From the NCBI GenBank assembly GCA_018432925.1, contig JAHDSC010000067.1, positions 1 through 46,663 on the forward strand: DNA of 46,663 bases. Direction: 5' to 3'. Shown in pieces: positions 9,030 to 30,902 of this stretch. The DNA comes from Desulfobacterales bacterium. GTDB taxonomy: Bacteria; Desulfobacterota; Desulfobacteria; Desulfobacterales; JAHDSC01. Position 1 is the first letter of the stretch. Each line of letters opens with the position of its first letter. The notes under the pieces are model-generated. The model did no database searches. It saw only the letters and a list, made by a program, of their open reading frames with translations, and was not told where the DNA came from. The translations under genes were made by a program, and so were the position numbers.

Positions 9030-10388
9030 TTATACATCCAGACTCTTGAGCCTTTTTTGTAAATAACTTGGTTTAACCCCGAGTGTCTCAGCAGTCTTAG
9101 CGATATTACTTTGATTCTGTAAAAGCTTTTTTTTGATAAATAGCTTTTCAAAAGCCTCTTTCGCGTCCTTTAATTGTTCGATCAAAAAAAGCTGCTCTTG
9201 AAATAATTTTTTCCCCTTGGCTGCTATGGGATTATACGGCGCAGGAATATCCGAATCGTCAATCGTATCTTTTCCTACCATTATGTCCAGCCGTTCCACA
9301 AGATTTTTCAATTCTCTGACATTCCCAGGCCACGAATAACGGCGCAACAGGTCTAATGCACTTCCGGTCATCTTTTTTTTTCTACTTCTGTTCTTTTTTA
9401 TACATTCATCAAAAAATATATCAACCAAAAGCGGTATGTCTTCCGAACGATTTCTTAGAGGAGGGACTTCAATGGGTATCACGTTAAGCCGATAGTAAAA
9501 ATCCTCTCTGAAATTTCCTGCTTTTATTTCTTTTTCCAGATTTTTATTGCTGGATGCAATGATCCTTGCATTTAAACTCAATATCCTGCTTCCACCCACC
9601 CGATGGAATCGTTGCTCTTGAAGAACCCGAAGAATCTTTCCCTGGGTCTTCAAGCTCATGTCTCCCACCTCATCTAAGAAAAGGGTTCCTTTGCCGGCCA
9701 ACTCGAACTTGCCTATTTTTTTCATGGGAGAACCTGGAAAAACTCCTTTTTCGTGGCCGAAAAGCTCGCTTTCGATTGAATCCTCCGGAATTGCCCCGCA
9801 ATTAACATCAACAAGCGGATGATCGACACGAGGGCTTAATTGGTGTATGGTGCGGGCTACCATTTCCTTTCCCGTACCGTTTTCACCGGTTATCAGAATC
9901 CAGGCGTCCGTCGGCGCTGTGATTTCTATTTGTTTTTTCAGAGCTTGTGTAATTGGACTGTTTCCATTTATTGAATGCTTTTCTATTGTTTTTTTTCGCA
10001 GAAATCTGTTTTCTTCTTCAAGTCTTCTAAAATTTAACGCATTGTTGATCGTCACAATAACCTTATCAATGGAAAGCGGTTTTTCGATAAAGTCAAAGGC
10101 ACCCAACTTCGTGGCTTTTACTGCGGTTTCAATCGTTCCATGACCGGTTATCATTATAACCTGAACATAGGGATTGTTCTTGTTGATCTCTTTTAATGTC
10201 TCAATGCCATCAATACCTGGCATCCATATATCCAGCAGTACCAAATCCGGAGACTCTGCATCAACGATCTTTAATGCCTCATATCCATTTGTTGCTGTCG
10301 TAACTTCAAAACCTTCATCAGACAGCAAACCGCTTAAAGATTGAAGGATCGTAGACTCATCGTCAACAATTAAAATAGATGGGAACAT
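9030..10388 (-). CDS. NtrX-like sigma-54-type response regulator with altered GAFTGA loop
   Basis: The 452 residues run receiver domain (about 1-120; DD at 9-10, phospho-acceptor Asp in LVLLDIWMPG, Lys in EKPLSID), AAA+ domain (about 145-370; Walker A GENGTGKE, Walker B GTLFLDEVGD) and a C-terminal helix-turn-helix (SNIAKTAETLGVKPSYLQKRLK). The sigma-54 contact loop, normally GAFTGA, reads GVFPGS at residues 215-220, then PMKKIGKF, so the key Thr is replaced by Pro. This may weaken or abolish sigma-54 activation, as in NtrX proteins that lack the motif. It follows the NtrY-like kinase by 123 bases in the same direction and is presumably its partner. Confidence 0.88.
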   Translation of the reverse strand: MFPSILIVDDESTILQSLSGLLSDEGFEVTTATNGYEALKIVDAESPDLVLLDIWMPGIDGIETLKEINKNNPYVQVIMITGHGTIETAVKATKLGAFDFIEKPLSIDKVIVTINNALNFRRLEEENRFLRKKTIEKHSINGNSPITQALKKQIEITAPTDAWILITGENGTGKEMVARTIHQLSPRVDHPLVDVNCGAIPEDSIESELFGHEKGVFPGSPMKKIGKFELAGKGTLFLDEVGDMSLKTQGKILRVLQEQRFHRVGGSRILSLNARIIASSNKNLEKEIKAGNFREDFYYRLNVIPIEVPPLRNRSEDIPLLVDIFFDECIKKNRSRKKKMTGSALDLLRRYSWPGNVRELKNLVERLDIMVGKDTIDDSDIPAPYNPIAAKGKKLFQEQLFLIEQLKDAKEAFEKLFIKKKLLQNQSNIAKTAETLGVKPSYLQKRLKSLDV

Positions 10389-27768: not shown

Positions 27769-27812
27769 ATGCCTCGTCCGATTTTAGTGAACAATAAAAT
27801 TGGACGAGGCAT
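27769..27812. repeat. 18-bp inverted repeat upstream of the nifU-like gene
   Basis: Arms 27769-27786 (ATGCCTCGTCCGATTTTA) and 27795-27812 (TAAAATTGGACGAGGCAT) pair over 18 positions around an 8-base loop. The only irregular position is G-T, a wobble in plus-strand RNA but an A-C mismatch in minus-strand RNA. No T-tract follows on either strand, so it is not a plain terminator. It lies between the nifU-like start and the terminator of the first sigma-54 RNA. Confidence 0.65.
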
Positions 27813-27872
27813 GTGTCAAGATAGAATCAACTAGGAATGCCGGCAACTTTTTAAGAGGAATTAAAACTTGAA

Positions 27873-27945
27873 TAAAAAACGGCTAACTGAGCAGTTTCAA
27901 TTAGCCGTTAAGGAGGAAAACAGATGAAAAAATTATTAGGGTTGC
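27873..27945 (-). ncRNA. Predicted sigma-54-dependent small RNA, copy 1
   Basis: A transcript of about 73 nt is bounded by a -24/-12 element (GC at 27958-27957, start near 27945) and a terminator. The terminator pairs AACGGCTAATTGA with TCAGTTAGCCGTT (13 bp, one G-U) around a 6-base loop, then runs TTTTTT to 27874. The unpaired 5' part holds CCTAATAATTTTTTCATCTG and TTTCCTCCTTAA, complementary to a strong ribosome-binding site and AUGAAA start. Bases 27903-27940 match copy 2 at 37 of 38 positions. The hairpin pairs fully only as minus-strand RNA. On the plus strand the same block mimics AAGGAGG plus a 31-codon frame (27924-28019). Function inferred: translational repression by blocking starts. 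Confidence 0.65.
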
Positions 27946-27954
27946 TTATTAGTA

Positions 27955-27971
27955 AAGCAATTTGCTTGCCA
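27955..27971 (-). promoter_or_regulatory. Sigma-54 promoter of small RNA copy 1
   Basis: On the minus strand TGGCAAG-CAAA-TTGCTT fits the consensus TGGCAC-N5-TTGCW, with GG (27970-27969) and GC (27958-27957) 12 bases apart. The same element occurs at the same place in copy 2. An IHF-like site GTTCAATTAGTTA (28023-28035, 7 of 9 consensus positions) lies near -84. Confidence 0.68.
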
Positions 27972-28099
27972 AAACATGAAACGATTGGCCGGTTTAATCG
28001 GGTTGTTGTAAATAATTAGTCAGTTCAATTAGTTAAACAGCTGGCAAAAAAATTACTGATTTCCAGCCGGCTTATTTTTCATTTTTTAAAAACAACCTC

Positions 28100-28115
28100 G
28101 TTCATATTTTTGAAC
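28100..28115. promoter_or_regulatory. Enhancer-like palindrome, copy 1 proximal
   Basis: GTTCATATTTTTGAAC is one mismatched pair from the palindrome GTTCAAAATTTTGAAC. Its centre is 162 bases upstream of the predicted start of small RNA 1, matching the proximal palindrome of copy 2 (164). Confidence 0.6.
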
Positions 28116-28178: not shown

Positions 28179-28194
28179 GTTTAAAATTTTGAAC
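28179..28194. promoter_or_regulatory. Enhancer-like palindrome, copy 1 distal
   Basis: GTTTAAAATTTTGAAC differs by one base from the perfect palindrome. It is centred at -241 from the predicted start and 79 bases from the proximal site. In copy 2 the spacing is 78. The rest of 27736-28316 holds no supported gene. Confidence 0.6.
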
Positions 28195-28316: not shown

Positions 28317-30332
28317 CTATCGGCCAAACGGCAGATCTCTGATCAATTGCTTTGCCTTTTCCTCCATGGATTTTTTTAAATCTTCCTTTTCGATGGCTCC
28401 CTCTTTGATTTGTTGCTTAAGTTCAGGCAGCACCTCTTTAATGTCCTGCTTTAAAATTCCTTTGAGATCCGGACGGAAGGTGGGAGAGGAAAAAGTTCCA
28501 GTCACCTGCACTGGAACCATTATTCCGACGCGTTCCATGCTGTCCGCCTGTCCCTTGAGAGTTGCCACAAATTTTGGTTCCATCCGCAGATCCAGTATCT
28601 CGCTAACGAGATCTGCCTTGCCGTTTGCCGTCACCCTGAGAAGAGGGGACATGAGTGTCGCGTTGGTGGTGTTCACGACCCCATCCGTGATGGTAAATGG
28701 AAAATTAAGCTCACTGAAATCCGTGCGGATCTCTTCAGCGCCCTTTTCGGCTAGACCGAAGGCAACCTTTACATTGCGAACCATGCCGGCCAAATCGATT
28801 CCCTTGATGGCCCCATCATTAAACAGAAGGTTTCCGCTACCGTTCAGGCTTTTTTTTATCCGATCCGCTTCATCCCCCGTCACGTTGAGTTCTACCTGGG
28901 CCTTTGCGTTCCCTTCCAGGCAGTCTTTGTCCAATACATCGTTCAAAAGCGGTCGCGCCTGAATTCCGTCGGCCTGAAGGCTTATACGGCTTCTTGGGTC
29001 ATCCTGCCGAACATCAAAGGCACCTTTGGCGGAAAGGGTGCCCTGATACAGGTTCAAAGTAATGGGATCCAAGTCAAAGAGTCCTTTTTTTCCGGAAATT
29101 TTCAGATGTACTCCCTGAATCCGCGCTTTTGCAATCTTAAGCTCTCCGAGTTTCACGTCACCATCCAAAACGATTCGTCGCAACGGTGTGTAATCCATTT
29201 TTTTCAGTTCAGAATTTGATGGTTCGGCTTTTTCCGTTTTCTCAGCTGGTTTTGTTTCGCTGGAAGGCGGCAAGTAACGATCCGCATCAATCCTGTCCAG
29301 ATTAAAATCAAAGATCACTGCGGGTTTTGATAGGTCCTTGACATCAAAGGAAAAATCTGCCTTGGAATCATCGATTTCCAACATTCCATCTAAAAGCGAT
29401 ATTTGCTGGAGGTCTCCTTTCAGCCTGGTTCGGAACGCAATTCGCCCAAATGCCTTCGGATCAGCCGTAACTATAGGAAATTTCTCCCCAAGATTATCTG
29501 CCAGTTCACGTGGAGAAAATGGAGAGATATCCACGGCCATGTCGAACTGAAGGCGGGATATTGGATCGACAATTCGGCCTTTCAAATTCATCGCAAGATG
29601 ATCTACCGCTTTTAAGGAAAGATCCAATGGGATGGTTCCCTTGCCTATATCCTTTCCCATCGGCCCGATATGACCGGTCAAGGATAACGGATGATTTTCA
29701 ACACGGGCAAAAAAATCAAGGTGAACGGGTTGATCCAGTGAAATATCCTTTAGGTGGAGACGCATATCGGAAACTTTTTTGCGTTCGTTTTTGGCGTGAT
29801 CGATCCACAGAACAGATCCATCGGATACCTCGAATTCCCCTACCGAGAGGGCTTTGAGCGGAAGTCCTTCAAAGGAATTGCCTGTCTTCGGAATCTCCCT
29901 CTGAGTTTCGGAAGGCAATTCTTTCAATGTTTTTTCTTTAAATTCCCAGTTCACTCGACCGTCCCTGGTCTTTTCCAGCACCACCTGAGCTCCTTGTACC
30001 ACAAAGCGCTTGATCTGTATGTCTTTTGAAAGCAGCGGAAGCAGCTTTACCCTGACATCAAAGGAATGAATGGATACGAAGTCTTTTTCCTCGAAACCCG
30101 AAGGGTTTCCTAATTTTAAATCGTTGAATGATAAGCCCGCCCAAGGAAACAGGGAAAATTTAAGATCTCCGCCCAGACTGAAAGGCCTGCCAACAGCTTC
30201 CGATACACGTTTTTCAATATGAGGCTTGTATTGTTGAACATCCACAAACATGGGAATAACAAGAAGGGCTAACACGATAATCAGGATCAGACCTCCTGCA
30301 AGAATCAATATCCATTTGAAAAATTTCATCAT
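28317..30332 (-). CDS. AsmA-family inner-membrane-anchored envelope protein
   Basis: The 671-residue protein has one N-terminal membrane anchor (residues 5-30, FFKWILILAGGLILIIVLALLVI). An AsmA-type periplasmic body follows (PFSLGGDLKFSLFPWAGLSFNDLKLGN), with a conserved C-terminal AsmA region (NLLFNDGAIKGIDLAGMVRNVKVAF and TITDGVVNTTNATLMSPLLRVTANGKADLV). A Pro/Glu/Lys-rich linker interrupts the middle (SSETKPAEKTEKAEPSNSE). AsmA-like proteins are thought to move phospholipid to the outer membrane. GGGAGG before MMKFF supports the start. The gene is bracketed by the two sigma-54 small-RNA modules, and its own start could pair partly with their seeds. Confidence 0.85.
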   Translation of the reverse strand: MMKFFKWILILAGGLILIIVLALLVIPMFVDVQQYKPHIEKRVSEAVGRPFSLGGDLKFSLFPWAGLSFNDLKLGNPSGFEEKDFVSIHSFDVRVKLLPLLSKDIQIKRFVVQGAQVVLEKTRDGRVNWEFKEKTLKELPSETQREIPKTGNSFEGLPLKALSVGEFEVSDGSVLWIDHAKNERKKVSDMRLHLKDISLDQPVHLDFFARVENHPLSLTGHIGPMGKDIGKGTIPLDLSLKAVDHLAMNLKGRIVDPISRLQFDMAVDISPFSPRELADNLGEKFPIVTADPKAFGRIAFRTRLKGDLQQISLLDGMLEIDDSKADFSFDVKDLSKPAVIFDFNLDRIDADRYLPPSSETKPAEKTEKAEPSNSELKKMDYTPLRRIVLDGDVKLGELKIAKARIQGVHLKISGKKGLFDLDPITLNLYQGTLSAKGAFDVRQDDPRSRISLQADGIQARPLLNDVLDKDCLEGNAKAQVELNVTGDEADRIKKSLNGSGNLLFNDGAIKGIDLAGMVRNVKVAFGLAEKGAEEIRTDFSELNFPFTITDGVVNTTNATLMSPLLRVTANGKADLVSEILDLRMEPKFVATLKGQADSMERVGIMVPVQVTGTFSSPTFRPDLKGILKQDIKEVLPELKQQIKEGAIEKEDLKKSMEEKAKQLIRDLPFGR

Positions 30333-30573: not shown

Positions 30574-30652
30574 TAAAATATAAACGGCCAATCGAAAAAT
30601 TTTCGATCAGCCGTTAAGGAGGAAAGCAGATGAAAAAATTATTAGGTTTGTC
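30574..30652 (-). ncRNA. Predicted sigma-54-dependent small RNA, copy 2
   Basis: A transcript of about 79 nt starts near 30652 and ends in a 15-bp hairpin: AACGGCTGATCGAAA pairs with TTTCGATTGGCCGTT through a tandem G-U step, then TTTATATTTTAT. On the plus strand the tandem step becomes C-A mismatches, so minus is the RNA strand. Block 30609-30646 is identical to copy 1 except one pyrimidine change (CTGCTTTCC here, CTGTTTTCC there), and includes the anti-Shine-Dalgarno run TTTCCTCCTTAA and anti-start TTTCAT. The terminator loop sequence differs entirely from copy 1, while base pairing is kept. On the plus strand the block mimics a start for a 25-codon frame (30630-30707), which I regard as the shadow. 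Confidence 0.65.
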
Positions 30653-30661
30653 ATTATTTAT

Positions 30662-30678
30662 AAGCAACATTCTTGCCA
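30662..30678 (-). promoter_or_regulatory. Sigma-54 promoter of small RNA copy 2
   Basis: On the minus strand TGGCAAG-AATG-TTGCTT has GG (30677-30676) and GC (30665-30664) 12 bases apart. A perfect IHF consensus TATCAAATTGTTA lies at 30731-30743, near -85, between promoter and palindromes. The layout equals that of copy 1. Confidence 0.68.
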
Positions 30679-30808: not shown

Positions 30809-30824
30809 GTTCAAAATTTTAAAC
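30809..30824. promoter_or_regulatory. Enhancer-like palindrome, copy 2 proximal
   Basis: GTTCAAAATTTTAAAC differs by one base from GTTCAAAATTTTGAAC. It is centred 164 bases upstream of the predicted start of small RNA 2. Confidence 0.6.
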
Positions 30825-30886: not shown

Positions 30887-30902
30887 GTTCAAATTTTTGA
30901 AC
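30887..30902. promoter_or_regulatory. Enhancer-like palindrome, copy 2 distal
   Basis: GTTCAAATTTTTGAAC differs by one base from the perfect palindrome. It is centred at -242 and 78 bases from the proximal site. No supported protein gene lies in 30333-31071. Confidence 0.6.

Follow-up and report, generated by a model that had tools for sequence, protein, structure and literature searches.

The window analysed here, a stretch of 46,663 nucleotides from a Desulfobacterales bacterium, carries two copies of a gene for a small RNA. We consider it probable (about 0.8) that this RNA acts in trans, is activated by a two-component system through sigma-54, and pairs with the start sites of porin mRNAs, blocking ribosome binding. 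A 22-base core, TTTCATCTG(T/C)TTTCCTCCTTAA, was found exactly twice in the window (27908-27929 and 30614-30635, both minus strand) and never in 100 dinucleotide shuffles of it with up to three mismatches allowed. At both positions the core is exactly complementary to a strong ribosome-binding site together with a start codon. The sequence-only reading had called it a mirror image of a translation start site; the complementarity is real, while the proper term is reverse complement.

On the evidence of sequence and predicted folding, the core belongs to the single-stranded 5' part of a minus-strand small RNA of about 75 nt with an intrinsic terminator. Each copy has the same order on the minus strand: a sigma-54 promoter, the probable transcription start about 12 nt further on, an unpaired stretch of about 36 nt, a stem of 13-15 bp and a T-rich tail (Table 1). 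The conserved unpaired stretch reads (A/C)AACCTAATAATTTTTTCATCTGYTTTCCTCCTTAA; it is unpaired in the minimum free energy (MFE) structure of the three members folded and is the most conserved part across 64 members. Copy 1 folds with an MFE of -18.1 kcal/mol and copy 2 with -19.5 kcal/mol (z -5.5 for both), and in each of them the block stays single-stranded 5' of the terminator stem, as had been proposed from the letters alone. The limits proposed at that time, 27903-27940, overlap part of the stem; the single-stranded block runs from about 27908 to 27945. An AsmA-family gene (28317-30332, minus strand) is flanked by the two copies. Between a NifU-like gene and the terminator of copy 1 there is also a near-perfect inverted repeat (27769-27812), with 21-nt arms 2 nt apart and 90% complementary.

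Table 1. Positions of the two small RNA copies and their predicted elements in the window.
Feature	Positions	Strand	Remarks
sRNA copy 1	27872..27945	-	about 74 nt, predicted ends; single-stranded target-binding region, terminator stem, U-run
Copy 1 conserved target-binding block	27908..27945	-	GCAACCCTAATAATTTTTTCATCTGTTTTCCTCCTTAA; unpaired in MFE structure
Copy 1 intrinsic terminator stem	27878..27909	-	13 pairs, then TTTTTTATT
Copy 1 sigma-54 promoter (-24/-12)	27957..27972	-	TTGGCAAGCAAATTGC
Copy 1 activator (UAS) palindrome at -144	28100..28115		GTTCATATTTTTGAAC
Copy 1 activator (UAS) palindrome at -223	28179..28194		GTTTAAAATTTTGAAC
sRNA copy 2	30574..30652	-	about 77 nt, predicted ends
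Copy 2 conserved target-binding block	30614..30652	-	GACAAACCTAATAATTTTTTCATCTGCTTTCCTCCTTAA; unpaired in MFE structure
Copy 2 intrinsic terminator stem	30583..30615	-	15 pairs, T-rich tail
Copy 2 sigma-54 promoter (-24/-12)	30664..30678	-	TGGCAAGAATGTTGC
Copy 2 activator (UAS) palindrome at -146	30809..30824		GTTCAAAATTTTAAAC
Copy 2 activator (UAS) palindrome at -224	30887..30902		GTTCAAATTTTTGAAC

A pattern scan of the genomes of the 96 nearest relatives gave many loci of the same architecture. When promoter and seed were both demanded in an exact pattern, the genomes of 84,980 species yielded 55 named loci, all in records labelled Deltaproteobacteria or Desulfobacterales/Desulfobacteraceae, the latter with Desulfosarcina, Desulfatitalea, Desulfonema, Desulfococcus and Olavius-associated delta symbionts. 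The cultured Desulfosarcina alkanivorans and Desulfatitalea alkaliphila are among the carriers. In the 64 alignable distinct members, 11 of 11 stem pairs had changes on both sides and 96.6% of cells were paired; none of 500 shuffles was as good, and pairing was lost when the partner was slid by 1-3 columns. The strand is also indicated by the stem, since about 41 cells are G-U when read on the minus strand, versus 5 that are A-C and so correspond to G-U in a plus-strand reading. The T-run stands 3' of the stem on the minus strand only.

A covariance model built without the promoter found two strong matches, and no third, across the window's genome, and these lie inside the window: 27869-27945 (minus strand, 86.2 bits, E 1e-15) and 30574-30651 (minus strand, 88 bits, E 4e-16). 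It was positive in 198 of 291 sampled Desulfobacterales genomes, with one to four copies each. In the sample of the phylum 11 of 297 genomes were positive, ten of them Desulfobacterales, and the match outside this order was a single weak one. No Rfam 15 family reached its gathering threshold in the window or in five relative loci, where only sub-threshold chance matches appeared, and the RybB and MicA models had no match at threshold. We regard these loci, by their sequence conservation, as a new RNA family that is widespread in Desulfobacterales and almost nowhere else. Some divergent relatives (L295, L297, L298, L301, L304, L305) have sigma-54 promoters with altered seeds and were missed or weakly scored by the strict model, so the family is wider than the given counts. 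A role as CsrA sponge was rejected, because the seed has no GGA motif on the RNA strand.

Tandem copies about 500-570 nt apart were seen at L077 (186-1382, three copies, uncultured Desulfococcus) and L020 (about 1450-2060, two copies, G011), which suggests that copy number changes by local duplication. In the named loci (L034-L088) a few neighbourhoods recur: the small RNA lies beside the kinase-regulator pair or, in 20 loci, beside an amidohydrolase-like gene. In 16 loci an MFS-type transporter and in 10 loci htpG is found nearby, and a NifU-like gene accompanies the RNA in four loci and in the window.

The promoter motif TTGGCA-N6-TTGC stands at constant spacing in every listed member. The searches behind that list required the promoter, and it is found also 5' of divergent members recovered by the promoter-free model. 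Further upstream the palindrome GTTCAAAATTTTGAAC is repeated in phase, at about -146, -225 and -301. The dyad GTTCA-N6-TGAAC was present in 49 of 69 upstream regions versus none in shuffles; 44, 47 and 35 of the 69 members had palindromes within 6 nt of the three positions, respectively, with a spacing of 77-79 nt. The 400 nt upstream contained 171 sites versus 2 in stretches taken 3 kb downstream as a control, which lacks some loci on account of their short length. Such positions are typical for sites of enhancer-binding proteins.

In 13-14 of the 55 named loci the small RNA directly follows a co-oriented gene for an NtrC-family response regulator, and in many of these the gene of its sensor kinase comes before it. 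Because the regulator adjoins the small RNA in relatives, it is most likely the protein that binds the GTTCAAAATTTTGAAC palindromes. Its ortholog in the window's genome is part of a kinase-regulator pair at G000:C76 (73% identical, 744 bits versus 407 for the next homolog) and has a receiver domain, a sigma-54 activation domain and a Fis-type HTH. In the window's genome this regulator gene lies apart from the RNA, and no binding site was found beside it. The window itself encodes a second NtrC-type response regulator (9030-10388, with receiver and sigma-54 activation domain), which shares 43% identity with the candidate activator; it showed no link to the small RNA.

For the targets, the 96 nearest relatives were scanned with the complement of the RNA and the small RNA genes themselves were set aside; beta-barrel porins recurred among the remaining matches. 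An HMM built from six of the matched porins recognised 14 porins among the 63 coding matches of the real complement. A control pattern that kept the Shine-Dalgarno sequence and ATGAAA but had its spacer permuted gave 0 of 37 (Fisher p 0.0017), and when the unpermuted pattern was run on the phylum sample, 2 of 45 were porins (p 0.012). When the six seed proteins were excluded, the real complement kept 8 of 57, still different from 0 of 37 (p 0.02) but not significantly from 2 of 45 (p 0.18). As this exclusion weakens the contrasts, the frequency of porins is by itself a moderate argument.

The coevolution of RNA and porin start site is stronger evidence. In a cognate-swap test with one porin per genome (12 pairs, 23 sRNAs), duplexes between porin and own-genome RNA were stronger than swapped ones (permutation p 5e-5, mean -34.0 kcal/mol; a first version gave p 3e-4), whereas 17 non-porin matches gave p 0.12. 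Most cognate porin pairs in relatives had -32 to -44 kcal/mol; three of the 12 (G061, G067, G025) were weaker than with most swapped RNAs. In several cases unusual changes in the RNA recur in the porin site of the same genome. In G023/G084 the RNA TTTTTCTCC is matched by porin GGAGAAAAA, and in G044 the RNA ...CTAAA by porin TTTAG...; G019 shares an inner T; and in G038 the RNA CTCCGTAA goes with porin TTACGGAG, including TTACGG, and pairing continues into codons 2-5. In G087 the RNA TTCTCCTCC goes with GGAGGAGAAC of a MipA-family protein. Porin-like start sites also match in genomes without a detected small RNA (G058, G012/G077, G074). Outer-membrane porins are, on this comparative evidence, the best-supported targets.

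In the window's own genome the scan covered 40 stretches, a part of the genome, with 647 start regions taken from mechanically predicted start codons. An LbtU-family siderophore porin (NF033652, 257 bits, cutoff 90) surfaced from this unbiased scan at rank 3 of 647 with -30.6 kcal/mol (median -14.7). Rank 1 was a TonB-dependent receptor with a doubtful start, and the ranking also holds non-envelope genes, for example a flavin-reductase-like protein. A pattern search found the start of an Lpp/OprI-like alanine-zipper lipoprotein, a protein just under its family cutoff, with one mismatch and -28.0 kcal/mol. A protein search for the L012-type porin gave no match in this genome.

The sequence-only reading had proposed an RNA acting in trans over the region from Shine-Dalgarno to start codon. 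Comparison of genomes agrees with this and extends the pairing to codons 2-5, with an RNA that covaries with porins; absent from the earlier reading were the sigma-54 promoter with its phased activator sites, the NtrC-type two-component system adjacent in relatives, the order-wide family and the porin targets. It had named the pgm and asmA starts as targets in the window, and these do have complementarity. But among 71 start regions (the window and other stretches of its genome) they ranked 12th and 9th, with -19.2 and -21.4 kcal/mol, like ordinary genes, and are unlikely as main targets. On average the real segment paired more strongly with these regions than 100 shuffles of it did. The caution that good start sites partly match anyway was sound, because much of this mean pairing is anti-Shine-Dalgarno content. 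It is therefore the controls with permuted spacers and swapped cognates that are informative.

We propose the following mechanism. The sensor kinase and NtrC-family response regulator, encoded at G000:C76 here and beside the small RNA in some relatives, would act at the phased palindromes, the bound regulator activating the sigma-54 promoter of each copy. The inducing signal may be envelope stress or nutrient state. RNA polymerase would then make an RNA of about 75 nt ending at the intrinsic terminator, and its unpaired 5' 35-38 nt would pair with outer-membrane porin mRNAs from the Shine-Dalgarno sequence through the spacer and start codon into the first codons, possibly with a role for Hfq. 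Other abundant envelope proteins, such as the Lpp/OprI-like lipoprotein, are probably paired too in the window's own genome. Pairing would block ribosome binding and so repress the porins.

The same block could also be read on the other strand, as the start of a short gene (MKKLLGL...) with its own Shine-Dalgarno sequence, the hairpin upstream being a regulatory leader. The plus strand indeed reads TTAAGGAGGAAAACAGATGAAAAAATTATTAGG, a textbook start, and is followed by open frames of 31 and 25 codons in the two copies. But in 78 members this frame ends at 4 to 64 codons, mostly after 6 (MKKLLG stop), has no conserved C-terminal part, and is shifted by the varying length of the T-run, while the sigma-54 promoter, the T-run and the G-U wobbles all favour the minus strand. 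With its frame not conserved, this gene is largely refuted and we hold it for extremely improbable; its appearance on the plus strand is best understood as the shadow of an RNA complementary to gene starts.

If the minus-strand RNA is accepted, its targets could be wider or different. It might down-regulate translation globally as a mimic of the 16S rRNA 3' tail (CCUCCUUAA), catching porins through their high expression and strong sites. The core CCTCCTTAA equals the usual anti-Shine-Dalgarno tail, and the better average pairing than in 100 shuffles over the 71 start regions is in agreement with such a role. However, conservation spans about 36 nt, far past the anti-Shine-Dalgarno part, the permuted-spacer pattern keeps the same Shine-Dalgarno and ATGAAA and yet finds no porin among its 37 matches, and the preference for the RNA of the own genome is seen in porin sites only, so that a global mimic seems quite unlikely. 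It is also unlikely that a real sigma-54 RNA has its main targets among other mRNAs (transport, nitrogen or carbon metabolism), the porin complementarity being a by-product of shared optimal start sites. The matches in some genomes do include glnA, a P-II gene and various binding proteins, and the flavin-reductase-like protein and other non-envelope genes in the own-genome ranking point the same way. Against this stand the cognate preference, present in porins and not in non-porins, and the porin sites of G038, G044, G019 and G023/G084, which carry the changes of their own RNA. We thus prefer a sigma-54-dependent RNA that pairs with porin start sites.

In enterobacteria, MicA, RybB, MicL and OmrA/B are envelope-stress sRNAs that repress porins or lipoproteins and depend on sigma-E or on OmpR/sigma-70. 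They resemble the Desulfobacterales RNA as short, terminator-ended RNAs pairing at or near the start of outer-membrane protein mRNAs. The latter, in contrast, has a sigma-54 promoter and an unrelated sequence, and spans the Shine-Dalgarno sequence, start codon and first codons together. Since it had no Rfam match and has a sigma-54 promoter in place of a sigma-E one, it is not MicA, RybB or MicL. Other sRNAs under sigma-54 and enhancer-binding proteins are Qrr1-5 (LuxO), GlmY (GlrR) and CrcZ/Y (CbrB). They share with it upstream activator sites, multiple copies in some genomes and probably control by a response regulator of this type, but differ in sequence, targets and structure; CrcZ titrates Hfq-Crc and GlmY titrates RapZ, and neither acts by pairing with porin mRNA. 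ChvR of Caulobacter, which is activated by ChvI and represses the TonB receptor ChvT, is a two-component-activated sRNA repressing an outer-membrane channel through pairing near the start, as is proposed here, but it is alphaproteobacterial, not sigma-54 dependent and unrelated in sequence.

The closest arrangement on record is in the same phylum. In Desulfovibrio vulgaris a sigma-54-dependent ncRNA lies just downstream of each of the NtrC-type regulators DVU0653 and DVU0679 and is under its control, and the accessible text of these reports gives no target or seed for Dv_sRNA2 (PMC3333781, PMC4641369). Dv_sRNA2 and the DVU0653 ncRNA are likened to the Desulfobacterales RNA here by their arrangement; in the phylum sample the covariance model was nearly empty outside Desulfobacterales (one weak match). 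As the D. vulgaris ncRNAs are likened by arrangement and have no reported targets, we file the Desulfobacterales RNA as a new sigma-54 sRNA family which works like the porin-repressing envelope-stress sRNAs, with repression as its putative function. The searched literature held no functionally studied sRNA of Desulfobacterales and no match for sigma-54 sRNAs in this order, the precedents being in Desulfovibrio.

Desulfobacterales are major sulfate reducers of marine sediment, and almost no RNA regulation is known there. It is an evenly balanced speculation that sensor kinase, NtrC-type regulator, triple-phased enhancer and whole-start-site antisense RNA together form an order-wide envelope-stress response replacing the sigma-E/MicA-RybB logic, in which the RNA tracks fast-evolving porin start sites by coevolution. 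The same logic, a stress-induced sRNA silencing porins, would run under another sigma factor, and the RNA would clearly exemplify a target-binding region that covers the whole translation start site and coevolves with it. Because the family is widespread and has a defined promoter, enhancers, a candidate activator and candidate targets, post-transcriptional control becomes directly testable in Desulfobacterales.
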